From positions 1 through 11,992 of the forward strand of contig QMVU01000010.1 of NCBI GenBank assembly GCA_003661265.1: a stretch of 11,992 nucleotides of DNA. The letters are read 5' to 3'. The notes under the pieces were generated by a model, which made no database searches, was not told where the DNA came from, and saw only the letters and a program-made list of their open reading frames with translations. This DNA comes from Thermoproteota archaeon. Lineage in GTDB: Archaea; Korarchaeota; Korarchaeia; Korarchaeales; Korarchaeaceae. Positions 1 to 11,992 of this stretch are shown one piece after another. The translations under genes and the position numbers were made by a program. Position 1 is the stretch's first letter. Each line of letters starts with the position of its first letter.

Positions 1-245
1 CAACGGAAGATCTTAAGCTTCTGATTAGCGAGATACTCTCTTACGACCCCAATCCCCTCAAGCACTGAGTGTTTTCCTTTTTTAGCTGGTTGAACATAAA
101 TACCATTCTGCCAGTACTCATTCTTCGCAGATCGTCCAGTAACGGCATCTGGAGTAGCAGCATTAACATCAATCAATGCAATTGAGATTTTCCTTCCCAT
201 TGTTTTTTCTTTTATTGCTTTACAAACTTCTGGAACAAGTGCGTG
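1..245 (-). pseudogene. Large terminase nuclease domain, continuation after in-frame TAG (partial, runs off the left edge)
   Basis: This stretch is open on the minus strand in the same frame as the large terminase and is separated from it only by the TAG at 246-248. The translation reads as the RNase H-like nuclease half of TerL. It contains a hydrophobic strand ending in Asp (SIALIDVNAATPDAVTGR, the usual place of a catalytic acidic residue), then an Asn-Glu-Tyr-Trp segment and a 'KKGKHSVLEGIGVVREYLAN' helix typical of phage terminases. The only internal start is an ATG at 198-200 with no good ribosome binding site. A product from there would lack the acidic residues Asp275 and Glu300 that lie before the stop, so independent function is unlikely. 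It could be a product of readthrough, a decayed gene, or the result of a base error. The C-terminus lies outside the window. Confidence 0.7.
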
Positions 246-1154
246 CTAATAAAACTCATCATAAATCCAAACATTATCATCTGGATCAACAGCAGCAAAA
301 ATAACAGCCTGAGGGTTTCTCGTGTGATGGTCGATAGAAATACAGATCATCCAGTCGTCGGGAATGGGGAAAGGATCAACAATATGTATGCGGGGATCGA
401 ATTCTTTGTAAATAAGACCGCTTCTTGTGAAAAATTTACCTTCAAAACGAGCTGCAATCTCATCCTCATCGCGACATAGGGCTTTAATAGCTTCAATATC
501 TGATGGTTTGATATAAGGATTATCATAAGTGCTTACGAAAACCGCTCCTACTAATGGTTTACCAGTCAATGGATCTTTCTTATCTGAATAAACAAGATCA
601 TAAAGCCAGTTTATCCCGCTTAAAGGAGTGAAGGTTATCAACATTTTTCCACCTGTATCAAGAATACGCATCAGATTTTCATGATAGATACGCTGCGGTG
701 GTTCCTCATCAAACCATACACCATGAAGAGAAGATCCAGCAAATTTACTGACATCCTGATCATAACTACGAAAGTTAATAGTTGAACCATTAAATAATTC
801 AAGAGTCCTTTTCTCCGCATGCCAAACATAGGAACCCTCTGGAAGAATTTCTCGAAACCGAGGGAGGTGGATCTCATTTATAACAACATTAAAATCCGGG
901 CCCACTACACGAAGGCGAAGTGGAGGAGGAGGCCAATCCTGCCAAGGATGAATACCAAGTGCTGCATAAATAAGATCATAGATTGCACAATGGCTTTTGC
1001 CACTACGATTACCACCACAAAATATCCGTATTCTCTGAGGAAGCTGATGAAATTCTAATTGTTTACGATGAGGTACATAACTGAATAGCTTAGAATATTC
1101 CGCAAAATCTGGAATATTCAATTCAAAAGGATTATTCTTCTTCCTTCCGGGCAC
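246..1154 (-). CDS. terL: Phage terminase large subunit, ATPase domain and start of nuclease domain, ended by TAG
   Basis: This is the motor ATPase that pumps phage DNA into the prohead and cuts it. Visible motifs are a Walker A GGNRSGKS at residues 47-54, a Walker B ending in VWFDEE at 146-151, and a coupling motif (MLITFTPLSG) at 171-180. The first nuclease strand carries Asp275 (ISIDHH), and the second is VWIYDEFY with Glu300, immediately before the stop. At 302 aa it is well short of a usual TerL (about 400-600 aa), because the nuclease fold continues in frame beyond the TAG. The start is GTG at 1154, with GGAG nearby inside the small-terminase gene, which it overlaps by 23 nt. As it stands the protein would have the ATPase but only half of the nuclease site. 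The family is clear; the status (intact by readthrough or broken) is not. Confidence 0.9.
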   Translation of the reverse strand: MPGRKKNNPFELNIPDFAEYSKLFSYVPHRKQLEFHQLPQRIRIFCGGNRSGKSHCAIYDLIYAALGIHPWQDWPPPPLRLRVVGPDFNVVINEIHLPRFREILPEGSYVWHAEKRTLELFNGSTINFRSYDQDVSKFAGSSLHGVWFDEEPPQRIYHENLMRILDTGGKMLITFTPLSGINWLYDLVYSDKKDPLTGKPLVGAVFVSTYDNPYIKPSDIEAIKALCRDEDEIAARFEGKFFTRSGLIYKEFDPRIHIVDPFPIPDDWMICISIDHHTRNPQAVIFAAVDPDDNVWIYDEFY

Positions 1155-1620
1155 TCTCCATCATCTCCAGAGACCTCAACATATGTGCTCGAAGCATTTC
1201 TTTGAGCTGCTCAGGAGTCATAAAAGAAAAAATGGCAAGGGTCTGGAGTTTCACTGGCTCATTGAAACCAGCTCGATCAAGAATATTTTTGTTAGCATCA
1301 AGGCGGACTTTCTCACTGCGGGCATATTTGGAAAGTTCAACAAGACGTTCAAAAGCATTAGGAGCTTCCTCAACAATCTTCTTCTTCAGCTCTTCTTTAA
1401 GTCGCTGAAGCTCAGCAACGATGTCTTCACGTTTCTCAAGTGCGGTTGCCTTCTGGGTCAGTTCCCAACTCCCACCATCTTCCTCAAAGGCCATTGCATA
1501 GGCATCATCTTTGGAAACTCCAGCAGCACGCAACTTGACGTAAGTCTTCTCTTCAGGAGTGAGAAGTTTTCTTTCTATTTCTTTTTCGATTCTTCCTTTT
1601 CTTTTTGCTTTTCTTACCAC
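1132..1620 (-). CDS. terS: Phage terminase small subunit
   Basis: This is the DNA-recognition subunit that would bind the packaging site and recruit TerL. The 162-aa protein has a Lys/Arg-rich N-terminus, then 'LTPEEKTYVKLRAAGVSKDDAYAMAF' spanning about residues 20-46, the helix-turn-helix-like start common in TerS proteins. A charged coiled-coil stretch follows at about 58-88, then the motif 'RLDANKNILDRAGF' at about 106-119, which is highly characteristic of this family. The GTG start at 1620 is preceded by a strong AGGAGGGCGGAGGA. The position directly upstream of and overlapping the large terminase supports the call. The C-terminal tail (MMESARKEEE) is acidic and may contact the TerL/portal machinery, which is inference. 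Confidence 0.85.
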   Translation of the reverse strand: MVRKAKRKGRIEKEIERKLLTPEEKTYVKLRAAGVSKDDAYAMAFEEDGGSWELTQKATALEKREDIVAELQRLKEELKKKIVEEAPNAFERLVELSKYARSEKVRLDANKNILDRAGFNEPVKLQTLAIFSFMTPEQLKEMLRAHMLRSLEMMESARKEEE

Positions 1621-1697
1621 TCCTCCGCCCTCCTAAATCTCGTCTCAACCTTTGTGGTAAAACATCAAATGTTGATAATACATCCATCTCTATTACC

Positions 1698-1706
1698 ATT
1701 ATATCA
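1698..1706 (-). promoter_or_regulatory. Candidate extended -10 promoter for the terminase genes
   Basis: Read on the minus strand this is TGATATAAT, a perfect extended -10 (TGn-TATAAT). No good -35 is visible at 16-18 nt. Its first three bases are the stop codon of the preceding helix-turn-helix gene, and it lies about 80 nt upstream of the small-terminase start in the only sizeable gap of this operon. It may provide extra terminase transcription. This is a motif match only. Confidence 0.35.
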
Positions 1707-2060
1707 CAAATTCTTCAATTTTTTCTGAAAATCAATAATCATACTCCAGACCGTTCCAACTGCACACCCAAAAATCTCAGCAATTTCCTTGTAACTATGA
1801 CCATTGATATAAAGAGCCCACATCACTCCTTCTGGAGAGGAAGCCCAGCGATACTTCTTGTCAATCGCCTCTACGAATGCATCTTCAAGAGGAGTTACGT
1901 ACTCCTTTGTATGTGCACCAATTGAAGATAATTTTACATCATACATCCCAGCAATTGAAGAGAGCTGGAAGTTAATACACTCCTCAATCGGATCAAAATG
2001 AGAAAGATATTTTCTGATAACTTCATCAAGAAACTCCTGATCCCATGACGACTTCCTCAT
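1704..2060 (-). CDS. Small helix-turn-helix protein, possible late-gene regulator
   Basis: The 118-aa protein has a C-terminal helix-turn-helix at about residues 82-110 (YINGHSYKEIAEIFGCAVGT then VWSMI), resembling sigma region 4 and homeodomain-like domains. The N-terminal 75 residues are acidic and aromatic with no recognised domain. I chose the ATG at 2060, giving MRKSSWDQEF, because GGGTG lies at suitable distance; an upstream ATG at 2114 would add residues deep inside the glycosyltransferase gene. The chosen start still overlaps that gene by 35 nt, so translation is probably coupled. Its place just before terS-terL resembles late regulators of the ArpU/RinA type in phages of Gram-positive bacteria, but I cannot assign it to a family. 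A second terminase-associated DNA-binding protein is the alternative. Confidence 0.7.
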   Translation of the reverse strand: MRKSSWDQEFLDEVIRKYLSHFDPIEECINFQLSSIAGMYDVKLSSIGAHTKEYVTPLEDAFVEAIDKKYRWASSPEGVMWALYINGHSYKEIAEIFGCAVGTVWSMIIDFQKKLKNL

Positions 2061-3099
2061 ACTTATCACCCAAGTATACTCGAAGATATTGATCAACAAG
2101 TAAAGAAGTGTCAAACTTCTCCTCTACTGTTTGCCGAGCTTTCTTCCCTATATCTTCTATTCGATCGAGGTTATCCAAAAGGTAATCAATGAGATCAATC
2201 CACTCATCTCTTTTCCGAGCTAAAAATCCATTCTCTCCATGCACTACTACTTCTTCATAAGAAGGAATAGCAGTAGTGATCAGAGCTTTTTGAGCTTCTC
2301 CAGCGTGCATGAATTTAATTGGCGCCTTAACTCTTATAAAAGCCTCCGGATCTTTCAAATCATGAACAAGAATATTTGCCTCCTCCGTACATAACGGATT
2401 GAGATGGATCAAAGAAGCTTTACAGACACTTATAAAATCTCTATATGGCAGAAATTCAAAATAACGAATATCAATATTTCGCACTGGTTCAAGATAAGCA
2501 CGGGCTAAACCTATCTTTCCACCCACGCAGAATAATCTTATATCCTTCCTCTTTTGATCAAGATAGTTTACTATATCTTTGATAATTGGTAGTCCGGTTA
2601 ATCCACCTCCTCCCCATAAAACCTGAATTCGATCATCTATTCTTGCCAATGGAGCCACTCGCCCAAGCAATGTAAGATTAATATGGGTTCGCACAACAGT
2701 AATTTTATCTACTATTTTATCATTCTTCTCAATCAAATATTCCTTCATTGTTTCTGTTGGAACAAGAACAACGGTCGCCTTCTCCATAAATTTCCAAGGC
2801 AGGTTGTCATTTCGATAATCAATCGTATCGTCAATAAAATAAACAAATCGCTTAGACGGATCCTCCATCAAACTCAATAACCAATTGTGAACAAGACTTC
2901 CAAAATGTCTTCCAATGCGATTCAAAACGAAAAACTTCTCCTTTCCAAATTGGACAAAGTTATCAACTCCACAAACCTTGTGAAAAATAAGGTTCTTAGG
3001 TGCCGCTGGAGCTAACTCGTCACATATTTTCCATAAACAACAATCATCTACCTCACTTAAGAACACAATGCGAGTATCTCCTTGTATATGTCGAGCCAT
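2026..3099 (-). CDS. Glycosyltransferase-like protein (GT-B fold, family 4 type)
   Basis: The 357-aa protein is laid out like a GT-B glycosyltransferase. Its N-terminal half has alternating strands and helices, including VYFIDDTIDY at about 86-95 and VVLVPTETMKEYL at 110-122. The C-terminal half has IQVLWGGGGLTGL (158-170, possible nucleotide-sugar loop), LFCVGG, and a late 'VVHGENGFLARKRDEW' followed by a helical 'ARQTVEEKFD', the classic end of GT4 enzymes. It probably moves a sugar from a nucleotide donor to an unknown acceptor (virion protein, phage DNA, or host glycan). The start is ATG at 3099 with AAGGAGAGG 7 nt upstream, overlapping the previous glycosyltransferase gene by 43 nt. The usual acidic E-x7-E of GT4 is hard to place: candidates are around HDLKDPEAF and GENGF. 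The donor and acceptor cannot be read from the sequence. Confidence 0.8.
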   Translation of the reverse strand: MARHIQGDTRIVFLSEVDDCCLWKICDELAPAAPKNLIFHKVCGVDNFVQFGKEKFFVLNRIGRHFGSLVHNWLLSLMEDPSKRFVYFIDDTIDYRNDNLPWKFMEKATVVLVPTETMKEYLIEKNDKIVDKITVVRTHINLTLLGRVAPLARIDDRIQVLWGGGGLTGLPIIKDIVNYLDQKRKDIRLFCVGGKIGLARAYLEPVRNIDIRYFEFLPYRDFISVCKASLIHLNPLCTEEANILVHDLKDPEAFIRVKAPIKFMHAGEAQKALITTAIPSYEEVVVHGENGFLARKRDEWIDLIDYLLDNLDRIEDIGKKARQTVEEKFDTSLLVDQYLRVYLGDKYEEVVMGSGVS

Positions 3100-4067
3100 T
3101 CTTTTATCCTCTCCTTCGCATCGTATTTCTTTGTAAATAAATAGAGACGCTCAGCATATTCTTCTCGTAAATCTTCATTCTCAATCATATCAATAATTGC
3201 TCTTCGCCATTTGTTCAATTTATTTGACGCATCAACAGGATAATAAAGATCAGGATAAGAAGAAAAAGGTTTGATATCTGTAGCTATTACTGGAATCCTG
3301 AACATACCATAATCCAGAAGCTTTCTGATCGTACGTGTTGCAGTAAAAGGAATTGAAGGTAAAGGTGCTAAGCCAATATCAAGATCCAGTGCTCCAAGTA
3401 CTTCGTAAAAATGATCAATATCAACCCAGTCATAATATTCCCACTGCCACCAAGGGAGACGTTTTATTGGAGTTGGAAGGAAACCGAACCAGATAGTTCG
3501 TACATCAGGATTACCTCGTATTACTTGGGTTACTGCGTGAGCAATATGCTCAGCTATTTTTATATGAGAAGATGACCCCTGCCATCCTATCCTGATTTCT
3601 GCTCGATTTGGACGCTTCCTCAATATTGCTCTTTCAAAATCAACAAGAGGAGGAAGTAAATAAATCTTTGCTCTGGGAAATCTCTCTTTCAAATTCTTAT
3701 AAGCTCCTTCCGAATGAACAGTTAAAATACCACATTCCTCGATAAAAATTTTCACAATCTCCAGTTTCCTATCTGGCCAGAACGGCTTAGTAGGGAAGTC
3801 AGGAGGAATTGCCCAGAGATCATCATCAAGATCGTAAATAAATAACTGATTGGATTTATTCTTTTTCATGTACTGGAAAACAGAATTCTTTATCTGGCGT
3901 TGCAAAACTACGAGATCAGCTTTATGAAGATCAGGGTCTTCTATATACTCAGGGTAAGAGGATACAGTTGCCTTTACATCAGAAAGGCGGGATAAATATT
4001 TGGCAGGGATATAACACTGGACAAGACTGCAACCATCAATACTCCCTGTTATGTAATGGATGTGCAC
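3057..4067 (-). CDS. Glycosyltransferase-like protein (GT-B fold)
   Basis: The 336-aa protein has an N-terminal domain with FIYDLDDDLW at about 76-85, the acidic signature often seen in GT4-like phage and surface-polysaccharide enzymes. It then has ILTVHSEGAYKNL (114-126) and LLPPLVDF (137-144). The second domain opens with IRIGWQGSSSH (158-168), the usual donor-binding strand-loop. It continues to 'RTIRKLLDYGMFRIPVIATD', where a helix is followed by a strand as in the nucleotide-sugar site. The GTG start at 4067 has GGAGAG about 10 nt upstream and overlaps the previous gene by 19 nt. It shares architecture with the next gene but is not closely similar, so this is a pair of different enzymes likely acting in series. 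The substrate is unknown, and virion or host-surface glycosylation is inference. Confidence 0.82.
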   Translation of the reverse strand: MHIHYITGSIDGCSLVQCYIPAKYLSRLSDVKATVSSYPEYIEDPDLHKADLVVLQRQIKNSVFQYMKKNKSNQLFIYDLDDDLWAIPPDFPTKPFWPDRKLEIVKIFIEECGILTVHSEGAYKNLKERFPRAKIYLLPPLVDFERAILRKRPNRAEIRIGWQGSSSHIKIAEHIAHAVTQVIRGNPDVRTIWFGFLPTPIKRLPWWQWEYYDWVDIDHFYEVLGALDLDIGLAPLPSIPFTATRTIRKLLDYGMFRIPVIATDIKPFSSYPDLYYPVDASNKLNKWRRAIIDMIENEDLREEYAERLYLFTKKYDAKERIKEWLDIYKEILALCS

Positions 4068-4336
4068 TCATCACCACTCTCCTGATACCACTTATCCACA
4101 TCACTTATCCACGCTTCAAAAATTTCTCGAAGAAAAGCATGATCCTTAGATGTGTAACCCTTAATTTTCGAAAAATCATCCTTTTTGAGCATTTCCCTGA
4201 TCTCAGCATATTTATAGCTAGGAAAATCTTCTATCCCTGCGTACCACACTGCAAGAATTTCATCCTCCTTCTTTTTAGCATCCGAACTGTGCCAAAATAT
4301 ATACCAGTCACTGCATAACCATCGGGAATATGCCAT
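4049..4336 (-). CDS. Hypothetical protein, aromatic-rich, 95 aa
   Basis: No family is recognised. The protein has an unusually Trp/Tyr-rich N-terminus (MAYSRWLCSDWYIFWHSSDAK), a middle helical segment rich in Lys/Glu, and a further Trp pair near the C-terminus (EAWISDVDKWYQES). The ATG at 4336 is preceded by GGAGGTG, which sits directly on the stop of the metallopeptidase-like gene only 2 nt away, so the two are translationally linked. The aromatic density is compatible with a glycan-binding or virion-associated role next to the glycosyltransferases, but this is speculation. Confidence 0.7.
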   Translation of the reverse strand: MAYSRWLCSDWYIFWHSSDAKKKEDEILAVWYAGIEDFPSYKYAEIREMLKKDDFSKIKGYTSKDHAFLREIFEAWISDVDKWYQESGDECTSIT

Positions 4337-4338
4337 CC

Positions 4339-4746
4339 TTACACCTCCGGTACGACATATTCATGTAAGCGCATAAGCAATGTTCCAATAAGTGTTGCCG
4401 CCTTCTCAATTGTCGAACTCTTCCCATCCAATTCCCATATCAGACAGTGACCAAACTCATGCGCAAGACAGTAGCGAATATAATCTCTAAACCCACGAGT
4501 AAGTCCTTCATCTGGTATCTCCCGAAAAATATCTTGATAGATATAGAAAGAAGCAGAGAAGATCTCTGGATTGTAAGTCATAGAGAATGAACTCCCCTTA
4601 TCATTATGAGGCTGATCCATCCAATGAACGAGATACAGGCGAATAATCGGCACAAGATCAACATACTCAGAAATGGTTTTGCTGATATACGCTTTTAATT
4701 CCTCCTCATACTGTTTCTTTACTTTTTCCTTCGCCTTTTTTCCCAT
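4339..4746 (-). CDS. Putative zinc metallopeptidase-like phage protein (HEFGH motif)
   Basis: The 135-aa protein has a HExxH zincin motif, AHEFGH, with the two His at residues 96 and 100 and the catalytic Glu at 97. A Glu at 114 (STIEKAATLIG) is placed where gluzincins carry the third zinc ligand. The N-terminus is a Lys/Glu-rich helix (MGKKAKEKVKKQYEEELKAY). The domain is small compared with secreted peptidases and closer in size to SprT-like or ImmA-like domains, though I cannot assign a family. The gene starts at ATG 4746 with GGAG 9 nt upstream and overlaps the endolysin gene by 28 nt. It could assist lysis by cutting peptide links, mature a virion protein, or cleave a host regulator. The metal site is seen; the role is inferred. 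Confidence 0.72.
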   Translation of the reverse strand: MGKKAKEKVKKQYEEELKAYISKTISEYVDLVPIIRLYLVHWMDQPHNDKGSSFSMTYNPEIFSASFYIYQDIFREIPDEGLTRGFRDYIRYCLAHEFGHCLIWELDGKSSTIEKAATLIGTLLMRLHEYVVPEV

Positions 4747-5252
4747 GTTTTCAACTCCAATCCATCAAATAATCTAAAAAGCCATCCATACAAAAACTTC
4801 CTCAATTTAGGAACCCGCAAAGCAGTATCAATGTAATATCCCCCCACTTCCACAATGAATATCCTCAAAAGGAAATCACCACTTATGGAATTAACTGCCT
4901 CAAGGGTCTGAGGGCCAATTATCCCATCAATGTCAACAAGCTGACCAGCATCGCAAAGGGCTTCCTGCAAAAGCATATTTGCCCGACGAGATCCGAGATT
5001 AACTGCGATATCGAAGATTTTCACGGCAAGAGGTTCATATTCAATCTCTTCATAACGATTTGGAACCCAAAAGTCTTTCCAGTAGATTTCCTTTGCTCGT
5101 TCAACGGTTAACTCCTTAATATCTTCATTTGGATAAGATCTCTTGCTAATCCCAAACTTAGTCTCCCCTCCAGGGTCATCCGGATCATAGACATAACCTC
5201 CTTCGTGCTTTAGAACAAGCTCAACAGCTTTCTCAAATTTCCGAGAGTACAA
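4719..5252 (-). CDS. Endolysin: GH108 lysozyme with C-terminal peptidoglycan-binding domain
   Basis: This enzyme cuts the sugar backbone of peptidoglycan to release progeny. The 177-aa protein matches the usual length of the family. The N-terminus carries the family hallmark HEGGYVYDPDDPGGETKFGI, starting at about residue 16, with the catalytic Glu17, followed by SKRSYPNEDIKELTVERAKE and IYWKDFW. The later part (VDIDGIIGPQTLEAVN, then IDTALRVPKLRKFLYGWLFR) matches the peptidoglycan-binding domain that normally follows GH108. No signal peptide or membrane segment is present, so export would need a holin; none is evident beside it. The start is TTG at 5252, with GGAGGTGA 6-9 nt upstream. It is the first gene of the leftward operon. 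The identification is strong from motifs. Confidence 0.92.
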   Translation of the reverse strand: MYSRKFEKAVELVLKHEGGYVYDPDDPGGETKFGISKRSYPNEDIKELTVERAKEIYWKDFWVPNRYEEIEYEPLAVKIFDIAVNLGSRRANMLLQEALCDAGQLVDIDGIIGPQTLEAVNSISGDFLLRIFIVEVGGYYIDTALRVPKLRKFLYGWLFRLFDGLELKTWEKRRRKK

Positions 5253-5272
5253 ATCAATTCACCTCCGCATTT

Positions 5273-5300
5273 ATTATAATTGACATCGCTCTTATCTGAA
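5273..5300 (-). promoter_or_regulatory. Candidate leftward promoter for the endolysin-terminase operon
   Basis: On the minus strand there is a perfect TATAAT (5278-5273), with TTCAGA at 5300-5295 as a weak -35 at 16-nt spacing. It lies about 20-50 nt upstream of the endolysin start. The poor -35 would suit a late promoter needing another sigma factor or an activator, possibly the phage sigma factor encoded on the other side. Confidence 0.4.
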
Positions 5301-5685: not shown

Positions 5686-6350
5686 CCACTTTATTCCATC
5701 CAGCATCTCCCGGCTCAAAACCAAGAACCCTTCTTTGGCAGGTCCCAACAATAGAAGAAGATTGTAACGAACTTTACCAACGTTATCGTGAAGGAGACCA
5801 GAAGGCTAAAGAAAAAATCATACTCAAATGCGTCCCAATGGCTATCCTGATTGCAATTCGATTCGAGCCCCCGCCTCCTTATGACATCAACGATCTTATT
5901 GCAGAAGGCATTTTCGGAATAATGAAAGCGATCGAAAAATTCCGTCCTGAACTGGGATTCTCATTCACAACTTACGCAGCTTGGTGGATCTATGGATTCA
6001 TTACACGTTTTGTCCATTCTCATCAATCGCCTGACTGCGAATCGGTCGAGACGATAATGGACTTTCTGGCTGGCACTGAATCAGTACCAACAGAGGAAAT
6101 ACCTCATGGTATATTTGATTATTTGATCGACGACGAATTCGTCCAGATACTTGAAAGACAGGTAGATATTAAGAAAATCCTATCTATTGTAGGAGGACGA
6201 GAGAGGAAAATCTTAGAAAGCCTCTTGAATCAGAAACCTATCCGTGCTATTGGACGTGAATGGTCAATTTCAGGTCAGCGAGTATCGCAGATTTATTACC
6301 GTACTTTAAAAATTATCCAAGACCGATTACGAATAAATAAAAGGAGGTGA
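5682..6350 (+). CDS. Sigma-70 family RNA polymerase sigma factor (phage-encoded)
   Basis: It would direct RNA polymerase to phage promoters. The 222-aa protein has region 2 at about residues 35-115, including DINDLIAEGIFGIMKAIEKF (core-binding helix) and GFSFTTYAAWWIYGFITRFV (-10 recognition helices with the typical aromatic and Trp residues). Region 4 lies at about 170-218, including GGRERKILESLL, a helix-turn-helix 'IGREWSISGQRVSQIYYRTLK', and a basic tail. An acidic linker of about 50 residues (116-168) replaces regions 3.0-3.2. I chose the ATG at 5682, inside the ATGA overlap, over an upstream in-frame start because it links to the preceding gene and removes a frame-shadow N-terminus. Its target promoters may be the leftward operon, where -35 matches are weak. 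Confidence 0.92.
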   Translation: MTTLFHPASPGSKPRTLLWQVPTIEEDCNELYQRYREGDQKAKEKIILKCVPMAILIAIRFEPPPPYDINDLIAEGIFGIMKAIEKFRPELGFSFTTYAAWWIYGFITRFVHSHQSPDCESVETIMDFLAGTESVPTEEIPHGIFDYLIDDEFVQILERQVDIKKILSIVGGRERKILESLLNQKPIRAIGREWSISGQRVSQIYYRTLKIIQDRLRINKRR

Positions 6351-6986: not shown

Positions 6987-7343
6987 ATGCCAAAAAACTC
7001 TATAACAGACTTGATTAAGAATTATCTTGAAGCCATCAAGGAAACAGAAAAGCACGGAAGAAAGGTCGGACAGATGTTGGTAAAAGCTCTAAAACCTATT
7101 ATCCCAGACATAGATTATAGCCTAGGCTGGGCAGAAGCAGGAGTGGATACGATATGTCTTTGGTCTAAAAAGCATAAAGCCATCAGAGTAGCAGATGAAA
7201 AAGCAATCCATCTAACAGAAATCATAGAAGAAGTATTCGGTGAAGAGCTCCGCTGGCACATTGATTGTCCTTTTGGAATATGGCTACTTCCAGAGGAAGC
7301 AAGAAAAGTAAAAGAAGTTCTTAAGAGACTGAAGGAAAATTAA
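6987..7343 (+). CDS. Hypothetical protein, 118 aa
   Basis: No family is recognised. The protein is soluble and alpha/beta: an N-terminal amphipathic helix of about 40 residues with Lys/Glu, a middle of probable strands (IDYSLGWAEAGVDTICLW, KAIRVADE), and a C-terminal helical segment ending KEVLKRLKEN. It contains only two Cys. The ATG is preceded by GGAGGGAGGTAAAT, 2 nt after the small membrane gene, so it is in the same operon. The layout resembles small nucleic-acid or protein-binding phage proteins, with no direct evidence. Confidence 0.75.
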   Translation: MPKNSITDLIKNYLEAIKETEKHGRKVGQMLVKALKPIIPDIDYSLGWAEAGVDTICLWSKKHKAIRVADEKAIHLTEIIEEVFGEELRWHIDCPFGIWLLPEEARKVKEVLKRLKEN

Positions 7344-7364
7344 ATTTTTTACATAAATCTTGCA

Positions 7365-7389
7365 GTTGGTACCTGTAGAAGGTACTAAC
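7365..7389 (+). promoter_or_regulatory. 9-bp hairpin between two genes
   Basis: GTTGGTACC (7365-7373) pairs with GGTACTAAC (7381-7389) with one G-U pair and a 7-nt loop. It sits in the 75-nt gap before the first of the tandem paralogues, 15 nt ahead of its AAAAAGGAGGAG. No U-tract follows, so it is more likely an RNA-processing or stability element than a terminator. Confidence 0.4.
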
Positions 7390-7418
7390 TACACATTTAT
7401 ATAAAAAGGAGGAGTACG

Positions 7419-7823
7419 ATGCTGGTTGATCTTTGGCCACAAATTGAACAAGATTTAGAAGAAGTCTCCACAGTATTGATGGAAAAGGACTGGAAGAAGA
7501 AGACCAATCAGATCTTATGTAAGGAGATACGTAAAAGAACATGGTGTATTTTCCTTGAACATCGAATACTTTACTTCTTTTTCCAAGGTTGCCCAGTAGC
7601 TATTCCTTGGGTTGGCGTAAGAATTACCGGATTTCTTGGGGAGCCAATCCCTTCATACGTGCTACAAGAAATAATAGAAGATCTATATTATTCCAACCTT
7701 CGACTGTTTGAAGATGAACTTGGATTCTTCAGAAAAGAGAAAAGTCGTTTCGGAGAGGATATTGTCACTTTCTTTGTCAATCCCAATTTTCCGAAAGGAT
7801 ACAATAGTTTTAGGTATTACTGA
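7419..7823 (+). CDS. Hypothetical protein, tandem paralogue 1 (134 aa)
   Basis: No known family. It pairs with the following gene: both start with a helix carrying an acidic/basic run (IEQDLEEVSTVLMEKDWKKK here), pass through hydrophobic strands, and share a conserved 'EPIP..VLQ.IIED' segment (about residues 75-88), followed about 10 residues on by Leu-Phe. The N-terminal half is aromatic-rich (RILYFFFQGCP) and the C-terminus is basic. It starts at ATG 7419 after AAAAAGGAGGAGTACG. It is probably a small two-domain soluble protein retained as a duplicated pair. The role is unknown. Confidence 0.72.
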   Translation: MLVDLWPQIEQDLEEVSTVLMEKDWKKKTNQILCKEIRKRTWCIFLEHRILYFFFQGCPVAIPWVGVRITGFLGEPIPSYVLQEIIEDLYYSNLRLFEDELGFFRKEKSRFGEDIVTFFVNPNFPKGYNSFRYY

Positions 7824-9166: not shown

Positions 9167-9517
9167 ATGAAAGACGATTTAGCCCGCAAAATGTTAAAAG
9201 AAATAGCATATGATCTCCTCAAATATTGTCATAGCAAAACCTGTCGTTTTCCTACACAGTGTCCTCGTGATCATCAAAAATGCAGACAATCCTTAGGATT
9301 ACACACCGCCATCGCATGGCGTGTTGCACAGCATATAGCCCGCCTTCTGAATATGGAAAAGATAAGTCTTGATATTATTCAAGATCACTTAACTCGCATC
9401 AGTGAATTCATTAACGTATTGGCTTATCATACCGATAAATTCCAGCAACTTTACGGTCTGTTAAACGAAGCAGTTTACTGGATAGGATGTCTAGAATTCG
9501 ATAAAGATGATTGCTAA
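9167..9517 (+). CDS. Cys/His-rich protein, tandem paralogue 1 (116 aa)
   Basis: Near the N-terminus is a strictly spaced C-H-x3-C-x5-C-x3-H-x2-C motif, with Cys21, His22, Cys26, Cys32, His36 and Cys39 (KYCHSKTCRFPTQCPRDHQK then Cys). This suggests a small metal-binding (probably zinc) module. The rest is helical (AIAWRVAQHIARLL; HLTRISEFINVLAYH), ending in Cys-rich 'WIGCLEFDKDDC'. The ATG follows AAAAAGGAGGAGAAA. The same motif with identical spacing recurs in the next gene, so the two are paralogues. A zinc-dependent protein- or RNA-binding role is inferred. Confidence 0.75.
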   Translation: MKDDLARKMLKEIAYDLLKYCHSKTCRFPTQCPRDHQKCRQSLGLHTAIAWRVAQHIARLLNMEKISLDIIQDHLTRISEFINVLAYHTDKFQQLYGLLNEAVYWIGCLEFDKDDC

Positions 9518-9588: not shown

Positions 9589-9945
9589 ATGATAGGAACG
9601 ATTAAGAAAAAACTACAAGACCAGAGAGAAAAATTACTTAAGTACTGTCATGATGAAAAATGTAGTAATATCTACACATGCCCGTGGGAACATGAAAAAT
9701 GTGAAAAGAAGCTTGGTCTAGATACAGCTATTGCATGGGTAGCAGGGTATGTAGTATTTCAGATCCTCTATAAAGCATTTCTTGATGATTTGAAAGACCA
9801 TTTCCATACCCTTTGTTATTTGTATGAGGTAGTACGACTGCACAAAGATCAATACCCTGTGCTTTTCCAGCTCCTACACGATACTGTTTATCTTGTTGAC
9901 GATTTGGTAAATATAGAAATAATGGAAAGTATGAAAAAACGTTGA
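9589..9945 (+). CDS. Cys/His-rich protein, tandem paralogue 2 (118 aa)
   Basis: It carries the same C-H-x3-C-x5-C-x3-H-x2-C motif as its neighbour (Cys20, His21, Cys25, Cys31, His35, Cys38), with the shared 'LLKYCH' entry and the 'LGL.TAIAW' helix directly after it. Between these fixed points the sequences differ, which suggests an old duplication with constraint on the metal site. The C-terminal half is hydrophobic and helical. The start at ATG 9589 follows GGGAGGGGATCATT. A 71-nt gap with a weak hairpin (TGTTTA/TAAACA, 9555-9572) separates the pair. Confidence 0.75.
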   Translation: MIGTIKKKLQDQREKLLKYCHDEKCSNIYTCPWEHEKCEKKLGLDTAIAWVAGYVVFQILYKAFLDDLKDHFHTLCYLYEVVRLHKDQYPVLFQLLHDTVYLVDDLVNIEIMESMKKR

Positions 9946-10218
9946 CCTATTCCCCTGAAGCCGTTAAAAATAACGACTTTGGTGAGTAAAAGTAGGAAAT
10001 CCTCTACTGGGATAAAAAATTAATACTGATAGGTCTGAGAACACTTACTGCTATGATTCTATTCGGAATAACGGTGGTTACTTGAACTACGTTTAAGAAA
10101 AGGTTAATTTTGTTAGCCTTATTTTGTACATTTATCAAATGAGAAAAACAAGAGAGCGTGGGCGTGGAGAAGCTTTACCTATATATGAAAGATTTTGGAA
10201 ATAAAGGAGGGTATAAAG
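9946..10218 (+). other. Gene-free 273-nt stretch with several hairpins
   Basis: No credible gene is visible; the longest frames are under about 30 codons and lack ribosome binding sites. Hairpins seen: CGTTA/TAACG (9962-9975, with flanking AAG/CTT), AGTAG/CTACT near 9989-10006, and AAGGTTAA/TTAGCCTT with a 5-nt loop at 10100-10120. The stretch may be a leader, a terminator region or a structured RNA. I see no tRNA T-loop signature. Confidence 0.35.
10100..10126 (+). terminator. Weak intrinsic terminator of the rightward operon
   Basis: AAGGTTAA (10100-10107) pairs with TTAGCCTT (10113-10120), with one G-U pair and loop TTTTG, followed by ATTTTGT. The U-tract is short and the stem AU-rich, so termination would be partial. 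It would leave the zinc-ribbon gene at 10219 partly separate. Confidence 0.4.
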
Positions 10219-10530
10219 ATGGGATATGCAAAATCCGAATTTATATGGGTAATGGATAAACGAAATGGTAAATTGTATTGGGTTAAAGAAGAAAGGAATG
10301 ATTCAGTTCTTTGTAAAAGGTATGTAGATGAACCACCGACTCTTATAAGAAAAGAGAATTTAGTAAAAGTGGTGGGAGCCGAAAGAATAATAAAGCCCTT
10401 AGAAATATATGGGCCTTGGAGGGGACCAGCATGGCAATGTCTCAAGTGTGGAAGAGACGCGGGAGTTATGTTCGAGGGACCTCCACCTAAATGTTTTAAT
10501 TGCGGTCAGTCTTTTTGGGAAGAATATTAG
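10219..10530 (+). CDS. Protein with C-terminal zinc ribbon (two CxxC), 103 aa
   Basis: Cys74/Cys77 (WQCLKCGRDAGV) and Cys92/Cys95 (PKCFNCGQSFW) form a rubredoxin-like zinc ribbon of about 25 residues at the C-terminus. The N-terminal 65 residues are basic and strand-rich (FIWVMDKRNGKLYWVKEE), likely a small beta domain. The start at ATG 10219 follows AAAGGAGGGTATAAAG; an upstream in-frame ATG at 10195 has no ribosome binding site. It ends with TAG, the only complete gene here that does, and the frame beyond is just 14 codons. Zinc-ribbon proteins of this sort often bind nucleic acids or electron-transfer partners; function unknown. Confidence 0.75.
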   Translation: MGYAKSEFIWVMDKRNGKLYWVKEERNDSVLCKRYVDEPPTLIRKENLVKVVGAERIIKPLEIYGPWRGPAWQCLKCGRDAGVMFEGPPPKCFNCGQSFWEEY

Positions 10531-10608
10531 AATTGCAAAATGCACAAAGGTAAGGGAGAGAAAGACGAACCTTAAGAGGAGAGGAGTTGGGAAGGAAGAA
10601 CTTTCTCT

Positions 10609-10630
10609 GAAGTTTCAGAAGAAAAGCTCC
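10609..10630 (+). repeat. 22-bp direct repeat, copy 1
   Basis: The sequence begins GAAGTTTCAG and ends AAGCTCC, and is perfectly repeated at 10890-10911 (281 bp apart). The flanking GGAAGGAA is also shared. In copy 1 the start forms a near-palindrome (TCTGAA GT TTCAGA). It ends 8 nt before the -35 of the small-RNA promoter, so it could be an activator site or an UP-like element. Confidence 0.65.
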
Positions 10631-10638
10631 GTAAGAAG

Positions 10639-10667
10639 TTGACAAAAGCGTTTGGAAATGTTAATAT
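10639..10667 (+). promoter_or_regulatory. Promoter of the small structured RNA (TTGACA-17-TAATAT)
   Basis: A perfect TTGACA at 10639-10644 is followed after 17 nt by TAATAT at 10662-10667 (4 of 6 matches). A perfect TATAAT also lies at 10668-10673, but at a spacing of 23. Start of transcription is expected near 10674. Confidence 0.6.
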
Positions 10668-10673
10668 TATAAT

Positions 10674-10812
10674 GGAGCTCCCCTTGGGTAATCCCCCAAG
10701 GAAAGCCTGCCGAGAGGCAGGTGTTACCCCTGTCGGGTTACCAATCTTTGGTAGAATGGTTATAAAAGCCCGACAGATGCCCATAGGCTGTAGGGCCTAT
10801 GGGCTTTTTTAT
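10674..10812 (+). ncRNA. Candidate small structured RNA of about 140 nt
   Basis: A promoter and a strong terminator frame a GC-rich stretch with four hairpins in order. H1 is CCTTGGG (10682-10688) with CCCAAGG (10695-10701). H2 is CCTGCC (10706-10711) with GGCAGG (10716-10721), closed by a GAGA tetraloop of the GNRA type. H3 is CTGTCGGG (10730-10737) with CCCGACAG (10769-10776), perfect over 8 bp, containing inner TACCAA/TTGGTA (10739-10753). H4 is the terminator stem. GGGTAA (10686-10691) could instead pair with TTACCC (10724-10729), giving a structure exclusive with H1. I do not recognise a known RNA family. The absence of a ribosome binding site argues against protein, although one frame is open. 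Confidence 0.72.
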
Positions 10813-10817
10813 TTTTT
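10779..10817 (+). terminator. Strong intrinsic terminator
   Basis: GCCCATAGGC (10779-10788) and GCCTATGGGC (10795-10804) make a perfect 10-bp stem with a 6-nt loop, immediately followed by TTTTTTATTTTTT. It also serves as the 3' hairpin of the small RNA. Confidence 0.93.
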
Positions 10818-10889
10818 ACTTAACGGCGGGAAATACTAGCTCTTATTGGATAGAGGAATACGATGCAGGAGAGGGAAGGAAATTACTCC

Positions 10890-10911
10890 GAAGTTTCAGA
10901 AGAAAAGCTCC
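10890..10911 (+). repeat. 22-bp direct repeat, copy 2
   Basis: Identical to copy 1 at 10609-10630, with shared GGAAGGAA upstream, but no promoter follows at the same distance. It ends 22 nt before the GC-rich palindrome cluster. Confidence 0.65.
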
Positions 10912-10933
10912 AGCCATAGGAGACTCACTTTGG

Positions 10934-10978
10934 GTCGACGGGACTCCCGTGGCAGCCACCCCCTCCCCCGGGCCCGGG
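10934..10978. repeat. Series of four GC-rich palindromes
   Basis: GTCGAC (10934-10939), ACGGGACTCCCGT (10938-10950), GTGGCAGCCAC (10949-10959) and CCCGGGCCCGGG (10967-10978) follow each other with partial overlap. They form a sharp GC-rich island in AT-rich DNA. The minus strand carries several G-runs (GGGCCCGGGGGAGGGGG) compatible with a quadruplex. The function is unknown: recombination site, structured RNA or protein-binding site are options. Confidence 0.55.
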
Positions 10979-11282
10979 CTTCGCTATTCCTTCCTATATT
11001 CTTTCCTCCTAACGGGATCTTGGGACTAAGACAAATTCTTTTCTTTTCCTTCTGGTATCGAAAAAAGAAAGAAAAAATTAATGATTTTGCGGTTTTGCGT
11101 GATGAGTAACAATCATCATGCAAGCGAAAAAATGGACAATGTGTCAAATATTTGGGACAAAAAGGGGAAAAGAGAATGCGGTTTTTTCGTTTTCTCCCTT
11201 CTCTTCCCCTGATCTTTTCTCTCTCCCTCCTTACTTTTTTCCTTTCCCCTTTCCTTTCTTTCTCTCTTTCGCGCACCTTAAC

Positions 11283-11311
11283 TTGACAATTAGTCAATTT
11301 TTTGGTATAAT
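11283..11311 (+). promoter_or_regulatory. Perfect consensus promoter pointing into the antisense of a gene
   Basis: TTGACA at 11283-11288 and TATAAT at 11306-11311, exactly 17 nt apart. The -35 lies within an inverted repeat TTGAC-AATTA-GTCAA (11283-11297), which looks like an operator. Transcription from about 11318 runs against the minus-strand gene at 11357-11617. Confidence 0.85.
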
Positions 11312-11328
11312 GGAGGCAAAAAAAAGAA

Positions 11329-11344
11329 GGCCTTGACCATGGTC
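11329..11344 (+). repeat. Left arm of 16-bp inverted repeat
   Basis: GGCCTTGACCATGGTC pairs with GACCACGGTCAAGGCC at 11633-11648, 15 of 16 positions. It flanks the minus-strand gene 12 nt beyond its stop codon. On the minus strand it is followed by TTC and eight T, as in a terminator. Confidence 0.7.
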
Positions 11345-11356
11345 TCATTTTTTTTC

Positions 11357-11617
11357 TTATAGACTTAATCTCATCAACATGTCTACAGGGAGGCTTTCTC
11401 TTATCTGTGAAGCATATTCTAACACTTCTGGTCGTCCAATCCCTAATTCTATCAACCTTTCAATTATCTCCTCTTCTGTGTATTCTGTAACTATCCTATC
11501 AATTGCCTTATCTATATCTTTTTCCTGCACTCTTAGATCAACCTGGAGTCGTGTAAAATCACGATATCCCGTGACTCCATCAAAAGCCATGTTTTCAAGT
11601 ATTTCCCTTAGTTCCAT
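11357..11617 (-). CDS. Small hypothetical helical protein between inverted repeats, 86 aa
   Basis: No family is recognised. The protein is helical and acidic: MELREILENMAFDGVTGYRD, then LQVDLRVQEKDIDKAIDRIV, then EEEIIERLIELGIGRPEVLE and an amphipathic end. The regular hydrophobic spacing is typical of a real protein. The ATG at 11617 follows AAAGGGGGGAAAG; an upstream frame to 11653 has no such site and crosses the repeat. It is opposed by a plus-strand promoter and terminator. A weak leftward promoter may exist at 11759-11733 (TTGACT then TGTAAT, only 15 nt apart). It could be a regulator or toxin/antitoxin-like protein under antisense control; that is a guess. Confidence 0.7.
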   Translation of the reverse strand: MELREILENMAFDGVTGYRDFTRLQVDLRVQEKDIDKAIDRIVTEYTEEEIIERLIELGIGRPEVLEYASQIRESLPVDMLMRLSL

Positions 11618-11632
11618 CTTTCCCCCCTTTCC

Positions 11633-11648
11633 GACCACGGTCAAGGCC
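11633..11648 (+). repeat. Right arm of 16-bp inverted repeat
   Basis: Complement of the left arm at 11329-11344 with one mismatch. It lies just upstream of the minus-strand gene's ribosome binding site, so in that gene's mRNA the two arms would join the 5' and 3' ends. Confidence 0.7.
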
Positions 11649-11678
11649 CCCAAGGGGAAGGCCTTGCCTTGTTTTTTT
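11642..11678 (+). terminator. Intrinsic terminator on the plus strand
   Basis: CAAGGCC (11642-11648) pairs with GGCCTTG (11660-11666), with three more G-C pairs inside and an AA bulge, followed by CCTTGTTTTTTT. It would end the antisense RNA started at about 11318. Confidence 0.7.
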
Positions 11679-11992
11679 GGGAAGGCTTGTTACTTAAGGA
11701 CAATTGTCAAAGAACAAAACTGCATTATCACCATTACACCACTTTTCTCTAATAGTCAACCTGTCAATTTTCCTTGACAAAACGCCACAATTTGGTGTGG
11801 GAAAATAATAAAAAACTTGATAGCACAACACAAAATGCAGGAAAAGCCTGATAGCGCAATGCCTTTTGACAATTTGTCCAAAATCCCGAGCGCAAAATAG
11901 AACTTGACAGGTGAGCGGAAAAATTGACGCCCAGTTTTTGTGACAAAGTCAAATTTGTTGTGAAAATTTCCTCATTTTTTGTGATTTTGGGC
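11654..11992. promoter_or_regulatory. Gene-free control region with many TTGAC/GTCAA sites
   Basis: No gene seen in 339 nt. It contains GACAATTGTC (palindrome, 11699-11708), TGTCAA-N6-TTGACA (11762-11779), TTTTGACAATTTGTCCAAAA (11864-11883), TTGACA at 11904, TTGAC at 11924 and GTGACAAAGTCAAA (11940-11953). A second element TGATAGCRCAA occurs at 11818-11828 and 11849-11859, 31 nt apart (about three helical turns). Most TTGACA copies have no -10 at the right distance, so they look like protein-binding sites (operators or origin iterons), not promoters. Confidence 0.6.

Follow-up and report, generated by a model that had tools for sequence, protein, structure and literature searches.

Genomic Context of the Locus

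The window, by which we mean the whole analyzed stretch of 11,992 nt, is an entire contig (C10) of a 1.49 Mb assembly that comprises 294 contigs, is 71% complete, and has no 16S match. It belongs to a phage of an uncultured bacterium that encodes the large and small terminase subunits (phrog_2 and phrog_2538), an endolysin, and a sigma factor. The rightward ORFs continue as far as 10530, and the stretch from there to the window end is mostly non-coding. A second contig of the same assembly (C7, 12,488 bases) carries the early region of a related phage; there, a mostly non-coding region of about 1.9 kb with two minus-strand ORFs precedes the rightward genes, which resume at 6158, approximately 1.9 kb beyond the start of the conserved block. 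As gene blocks are found on both sides of the mostly non-coding stretch, the predicted RNA described below sits in a control region between them. The sequence-only reading had placed it at the end of the early operon, and a plus-strand ORF does end at 10530, but the locus is instead part of a control region that has blocks of rightward genes on either side. The following features have been identified.

10598–10630, no strand assigned: direct repeat, copy 1; 33 nt with the core GAAGTTTCAGAAGAAAAGCTCC and the dyad TCTGAA-GT-TTCAGA, shortly before the promoter
10639–10667, plus strand: predicted promoter of the sigma-70 type with an extended –10 element (TG), TTGACA-17-TAATAT, identical in C7
10674–10777, plus strand: predicted RNA body, 104 nt, with the start deduced from the promoter
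10682–10701, plus strand: hairpin 1, 7 bp here and 8 bp in C7 due to an inserted G
10705–10722, plus strand: hairpin 2, seven pairs and a GAGA (GNRA) loop
10723–10729, plus strand: linker GUUACCC, mostly unpaired as judged by unpaired probabilities and identical in both copies; candidate contact region
10730–10776, plus strand: hairpin 3, with a 10-pair outer stem, a one-sided UAUAAA bulge, and an inner stem
10779–10817, plus strand: predicted intrinsic terminator, 11-pair stem and T-rich tail
10879–10911, no strand assigned: direct repeat, copy 2; 91% identical to copy 1, heading the second conserved block

The direct repeat at 10598–10630 is a candidate protein-binding site; its 21-nt core occurs four times in the assembly (at most three mismatches allowed), each time on one of the two phage contigs. 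The two phages differ in the gene that immediately precedes the RNA: in C7 it is leftward (3597–4244, minus strand), belongs to the PAPS-reductase family and also matches the SspD model, while this position in C10 is occupied by a different, rightward ORF (10195–10530) that has cysteine pairs and no Pfam match.

Predicted Promoter, Terminator, and Fold

The predicted promoter consists of the hexamer TTGACA (10639–10644), a 17-nt spacer, the extended element TG, and the hexamer TAATAT (10662–10667), and agrees with the consensus at 10 of 12 positions. Promoter-like sites alone are not above chance, as the window contains 35 of them, compared to 29.3 ± 5.2 in shuffled sequences. The terminator, in turn, has an 11-pair stem (10779–10804) followed by T6 A T6, and strong terminators, defined as stems of at least nine pairs with six GC and at least six T of eight, average 0.0 per shuffle of the window. 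Hence, units composed of a good promoter and a strong terminator 60–250 nt further on are observed in none of 100 window shuffles, and in the real window all six listed units are located at this locus. The TTGACA promoter and the very strong terminator named in the sequence-only reading are thereby borne out, and the locus has, as would a small RNA gene, a promoter and an intrinsic terminator of its own in the same orientation, both predicted from sequence.

The body has a GC content of 54%, compared to 39% for the whole window, and the fold of the 10674–10817 segment has an energy of –70.4 kcal/mol, versus –44.1 ± 4.0 for 200 dinucleotide shuffles (z = –6.5), none of which is as stable. When both strands were scanned in a total of 1190 segments of 110 nt, with 25 shuffles per segment, the lowest energy and the lowest z-value both belonged to the plus-strand segment at 10701 (–57.9, z = –9.0). 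The next z-values are –6.9 at 10681 (plus strand) and, equally, at 7321 (minus strand), an unrelated place; the minus strand at the locus of the predicted RNA also ranks high (z = –6.2). The 7301–7450 region (minus strand) is in itself unusual, as such a low z-value (–6.9 near 7321, 25 shuffles) is not typical of a coding stretch.

The three hairpins read from the sequence alone in a GC-rich stretch of about 140 nt are reproduced by these calculations, including the GNRA loop, GAGA, of hairpin 2 and the perfect outer stem of 8 bp, which corresponds to the first eight pairs of the 10-pair outer stem of hairpin 3, all of them Watson–Crick. Hairpin 1 is already present in the 30-nt 5′ fragment. 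On the contrary, the suggested switch between GGGTAA and TTACCC does not stand: this pairing can be drawn, but the alternative fold is less stable than the ground state by 4.8 kcal/mol in C10 and 7.8 kcal/mol in C7, with a pair probability below 0.001, and a riboswitch or another two-state RNA based on it has been rejected on energetic grounds, as far as ligand-free, nested secondary structures are concerned.

Conservation in a Related Phage

A second copy of the RNA is found in C7 at 4381–4523, with 94% identity over 228 aligned nt that include the promoter. Identity counted without gaps changes sharply along the region. It is 61% just 5′ of the repeat, 97% in the repeat and promoter (10602–10673), 98% in the body (102 of 104 aligned positions, plus one inserted G), and 74% in the terminator (10778–10817); two less conserved stretches on the 3′ side, one after the terminator and one after the second block, are 68 and 65% identical, respectively, and the body differs from these two stretches with Fisher p = 1e-11. 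For reference, third codon positions of four gene pairs are 38–68% identical (the pair with 38% may be paralogs), and the identity of protein pairs between contigs is 86% for C7 and C68, and 84 and 61% for the others.

Judging from the two sequences, the body is either constrained far more strongly than the less conserved stretches on its 3′ side, or has been recently exchanged. A recent exchange between these phages could account for part of the block identity; the sharp drop inside the terminator makes constraint the likelier of the two. Further blocks of the region, at 10884–10985 (93%), 11082–11185 (88%), and 11273–11347 (93%), are also conserved in C7, and therefore conservation alone does not single out the RNA.

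The few differences in the body are compatible with the fold. The inserted G of C7 extends hairpin 1 from seven to eight base pairs; in the inner stem of hairpin 3, a C to T change turns a C–G pair into U–G, and an A to T change turns an A–A mismatch into a U–A pair. The C7 body is more stable than the C10 one (–52.6 versus –48.3), an equal gain being obtained in 1.8% of 3000 random placements of the same three types of changes and in 0.7% of cases when any two substitutions and one insertion are allowed. The C7 terminator, more changed than the body, still folds as a hairpin with one pair lost; that is, the terminator is kept in shape rather than in sequence. The fold of the C7 copy has z = –6.2, so structure beyond chance is retained in the homolog, as expected of a small RNA, in a comparison of two sequences without two-sided covariation. 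Two-sided pair changes between the copies are absent, and with two sequences the shuffle control on pair counts yields no signal.

Three one-sided pair changes (A2 columns 69–87, 115–124, and 117–122) are G–U exchanges on the plus strand and would read as A–C on the minus strand. From C10 to C7, the plus-strand fold loses 2.1 kcal/mol and the minus-strand fold 7.2, and the plus strand is the likelier one. This observation bears on the possibility that the locus is a DNA site (an origin or a site of single-strand initiation, recombination, or packaging) whose hairpins form in single-stranded DNA and whose likeness to a promoter and a terminator is incidental. The presence of several conserved blocks and repeats nearby agrees with such a site, as does the fact that the C10 copy, considered by itself, has an equally good fold on its minus strand (–69.9, z = –7.4). 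However, the one-sided changes preserve pairing on the plus strand and not on the minus strand; promoter, hairpins, and T-run all point the same way at suitable distances; and the combination of a promoter with a strong terminator is absent from all 100 shuffles. We regard a DNA site as quite improbable.

Coding Potential

Two frames of at least 40 codons cover the body in the C10 copy, one of 66 codons on the plus strand (10639–10839) and the other of 70 codons on the minus strand (10572–10784). Their openness, together with the fact that about the first 33 codons of the minus-strand frame stay in frame in C7, is what could be said for a short protein-coding gene. Against it, both frames are shifted inside the body by the G inserted in C7: the plus-strand frame immediately meets a stop, and the second half of the minus-strand frame is changed. 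Moreover, the plus-strand frame has no start before a TTG that belongs to the –35 hexamer. No reading frame is therefore kept over the RNA, as in a small RNA gene, the evidence being this one inserted base; a protein-coding gene has been rejected on these grounds, and we assign it hardly any probability at all. The C7 copy is thus a homolog in which the stems are kept while the open frames over the body are shifted. The plus-strand ORFs that follow the RNA in C10 (10799–11029 and 10846–11109) have no counterpart of at least 50 amino acids in C7.

Search for Homologs and RNA Families

The window contains no Rfam 15 match at the gathering score, and the statement of the sequence-only reading that no RNA family can be named agrees with this covariance-model search. 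At E up to 10, 23 sub-threshold matches are obtained, three of which (trpB, CsrC, and XIST_A_REPEAT) overlap the RNA or its terminator. CsrC, the best of these by E-value, scores 26.5 bits versus 61 needed and has been judged a chance match; as it spans 10566–10821, it takes in the purine-rich stretch upstream. No tRNA or tmRNA has been found in the window.

Sequence searches yielded no further homologs. Scanning IMG/VR with the pattern GCCTGCCGAGAGGCAGG produced four stretches, unrelated by eye and scoring 14 to 20 bits with the covariance model, and the pattern GGGTAATCCCC followed by a gap and GTTACCC produced ten, also unrelated by eye and none of them found with the model at E ≤ 1; the pattern of hairpin 3 and that of the second block had no matches in the same database. 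These scans are for exact patterns and would miss diverged relatives. In genome contigs a gapped pattern occurs in six stretches, none of which scores with the model at the pattern site. Comparison by blastn with phages gave seven records at E up to 10 (best E 0.8), and with plasmids, no record at E ≤ 1. Scans at the protein level yielded no relative either.

The covariance model built from the two sequences (R1) was run over 23 sources and gave seven matches at E up to 1, including the two true copies. The strongest of the remaining five, in L038 (24.7 bits, E 0.0019), lies away from the pattern site and has been judged to be due to chance for a two-sequence model; the other four are weaker. 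Among 29 genomes of the phylum, R1 has matches only in the assembly that contains C10 and C7. Similarly, in 394 genomes (its own included), searched with the stricter filters of Infernal, only this assembly is found, the other 393 being without a match. The IMG/VR contig L010 has a terminase 92% identical to that of the window and DNA 85% identical to window positions 1–5279, but the absence of an R1 match there is uninformative, as the contig ends at the equivalent of window position 7148. Two records found via a neighboring protein family, L045 and L046, have no R1 match over their whole length at E ≤ 1, and a piece of L046 with 13.6 bits has been judged a chance match. The members known so far are hence two copies, both in one assembly.

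CRISPR Repeats and Base-Pairing

A short phage RNA gene with hairpins might act as an RNA anti-CRISPR that mimics the repeat of a host CRISPR array, a possibility for which the presence of Cas1 in 10 of the 24 host-family genomes can also be cited. No Cas1 match is found, however, in the host assembly (71% complete) or in its one congener (78%). Eighteen arrays from overlapping loci of host-family genomes yielded nine distinct repeats, none of them the host’s own, and their alignments with the RNA region do not exceed chance, as 17 to 99 of 100 shuffled versions score equally well. Matches of 418 spacers (some counted twice because of overlapping loci) to the phage contigs do not exceed 20 nt among those listed. 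A repeat mimic is a very remote prospect in our estimate.

The predicted pairing of the linker with 92 ORF starts of three phage contigs does not surpass that of shuffled linkers; on three measures, 14.5, 31.5, and 43% of 200 shuffles perform as well. The C68 start AAAGGAGGGGTAATAATG pairs well with the linker (–15.7), a score that is not significant, and the C7 ortholog of this start has AAAGGAGGTATAACGATG.

Comparison with Known Phage RNAs

Phage small RNAs with their own promoter and terminator are a known kind, described mostly from model hosts, where they have been found by RNA-seq. The arrangement of a promoter, a structured RNA of about 150–200 nt, and a terminator is that of the lambda 6S RNA, or pR′ leader, whose terminator is controlled by an antiterminator. 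By analogy, the locus could be a cis-acting transcription-control unit, where a promoter and a short structured leader end in a terminator that a phage antiterminator overrules, thus allowing for later rightward transcription. The promoter, short RNA, and strong terminator do follow in that order, rightward genes are found further on in C7, and a second promoter (11283–11311) also runs almost directly into a terminator-like hairpin (11328–11345). Yet, more than 1.4 kb, with further terminator-like hairpins, separate the locus from the next rightward gene, with one (C10) or two (C7) minus-strand ORFs in between; unlike in the lambda arrangement, no rightward gene with a C7 counterpart lies directly 3′ of the RNA. 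Furthermore, the body is 98% and the terminator 74% identical, the reverse of what a terminator-centered unit predicts. We consider a unit of this type unlikely.

Other known RNAs resemble the predicted one in part. The stable RNAs C and D of phage T4 are small, structured, phage-encoded, and without known function, and the likeness lies in these properties, including the obscure function; they are located in a tRNA gene cluster and processed from longer transcripts, whereas here the window has no tRNA gene, and a promoter and a terminator are predicted for the RNA itself. Antisense RNAs of phages, such as lambda oop, are short, terminated, transcribed from their own promoters, and encoded in control regions, all of which is also predicted for the studied locus, but here no likely gene lies on the opposite strand: the C7 minus-strand gene 3597–4244 has its start on the 5′ side of the RNA and runs in the direction leading away from it. 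The packaging RNA of the phi29 family is a phage RNA of similar length that also has several hairpins; an RNA of this type has been rejected here, there being no Rfam match at threshold and the terminase subunits being phrog_2 and phrog_2538 instead. RNA anti-CRISPRs, finally, are likewise small RNA genes encoded by phages, from which the present RNA differs in having no likeness to the nine repeats of the host family.

Proposed Function

Taken together, these data point to a free-standing, non-coding phage small RNA gene, most likely acting in trans, which we consider the probable explanation. In it, transcription by the host sigma-70 polymerase would begin at the extended –10 promoter and be ended by the intrinsic terminator, yielding an RNA of about 140 nt that would fold into three stable hairpins during its synthesis. 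The RNA itself would be the product, being neither protein-coding nor the leader of a gene, and would act in trans in infection. This action would rely on its body being fixed in both sequence and shape: the RNA might bind a protein of the host or the phage, or else its exposed linker GUUACCCC might engage in base-pairing. A regulator encoded by the phage probably uses the flanking repeat as its operator.

The body has remained near-unchanged in the related phage while the adjoining DNA has diverged, which makes it very probable that the RNA does something. Moreover, near-identity extends over stems, loops, and linker, beyond the needs of folding, and this suggests a specific partner; with the body nearly invariant and the terminator drifted, such a partner could be fished out using the RNA as bait. 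Most weight is therefore given to trans action via a protein or RNA partner, followed by a cis-acting control unit like that of lambda 6S and then by a DNA site. As far as can be judged from two sequences, the RNA is a new family within a known kind of phage small RNA, so far with two members. It was predicted from sequence, passes the comparison between two phages, and falls below every Rfam threshold. A more far-reaching version, which we put forward only as a tentative and rather doubtful idea, is that of a new family of early phage RNAs whose shape and sequence enable them to take control of a machine of the host, be it the polymerase, the ribosome, or an RNA-binding regulator, and which are near-invariant in phages of this uncultured host and governed by a phage regulator binding to the repeat.

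Other Features of the Region

A family of small proteins with five members, located in C10 at 9167–9517 and 9589–9945 and in C7 at 1567–1983, 2458–2796, and 2859–3218, is characterized by conserved YCH, C, P, H, and C positions and an IAW motif; the two members tested have no Pfam match, and two distant relatives are found in IMG/VR.

The second conserved block (10884–10985) is GC-rich, 93% identical in C7, and contains the small palindromes GTCGAC, GGGACTCCC, GTGGCAGCCAC, and CCGGGCCCGG. It is not more structured than expected by chance, and IMG/VR contains no exact match to its 20-nt core. Further on, a long polypyrimidine tract is observed on the plus strand at 11181–11272, being longer in C7; the skews in the 11180–11299 region are –0.67 (GC) and –0.69 (AT). 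The second promoter matches the consensus at all 12 positions, has a TTGAC-N5-GTCAA dyad over its –35 element, and meets the hairpin, followed by T8, within approximately 20 nt.

The minus-strand ORF 11357–11653 lies between 16-nt inverted repeats, GGCCTTGACCATGGTC and GACCACGGTCAAGGCC (11329–11344 and 11633–11648). In C7 (5147–5420), similar repeats, as seen by eye, surround an ORF at no more than 32% identity, resembling an exchangeable cassette; the minus-strand ORFs beyond the RNA in C10 and C7 have 32% identity at best and may not be homologous. The rest of the window (11700–11992) is repeat-rich non-coding DNA with many TTGACA/TGTCAA and TGATAGCGCAA-like words seen by eye; it is 85% identical to C7 and possibly represents an origin or an operator field. 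The last 45 bases of the window recur at the end of C68, a contig resembling the right part of C7.
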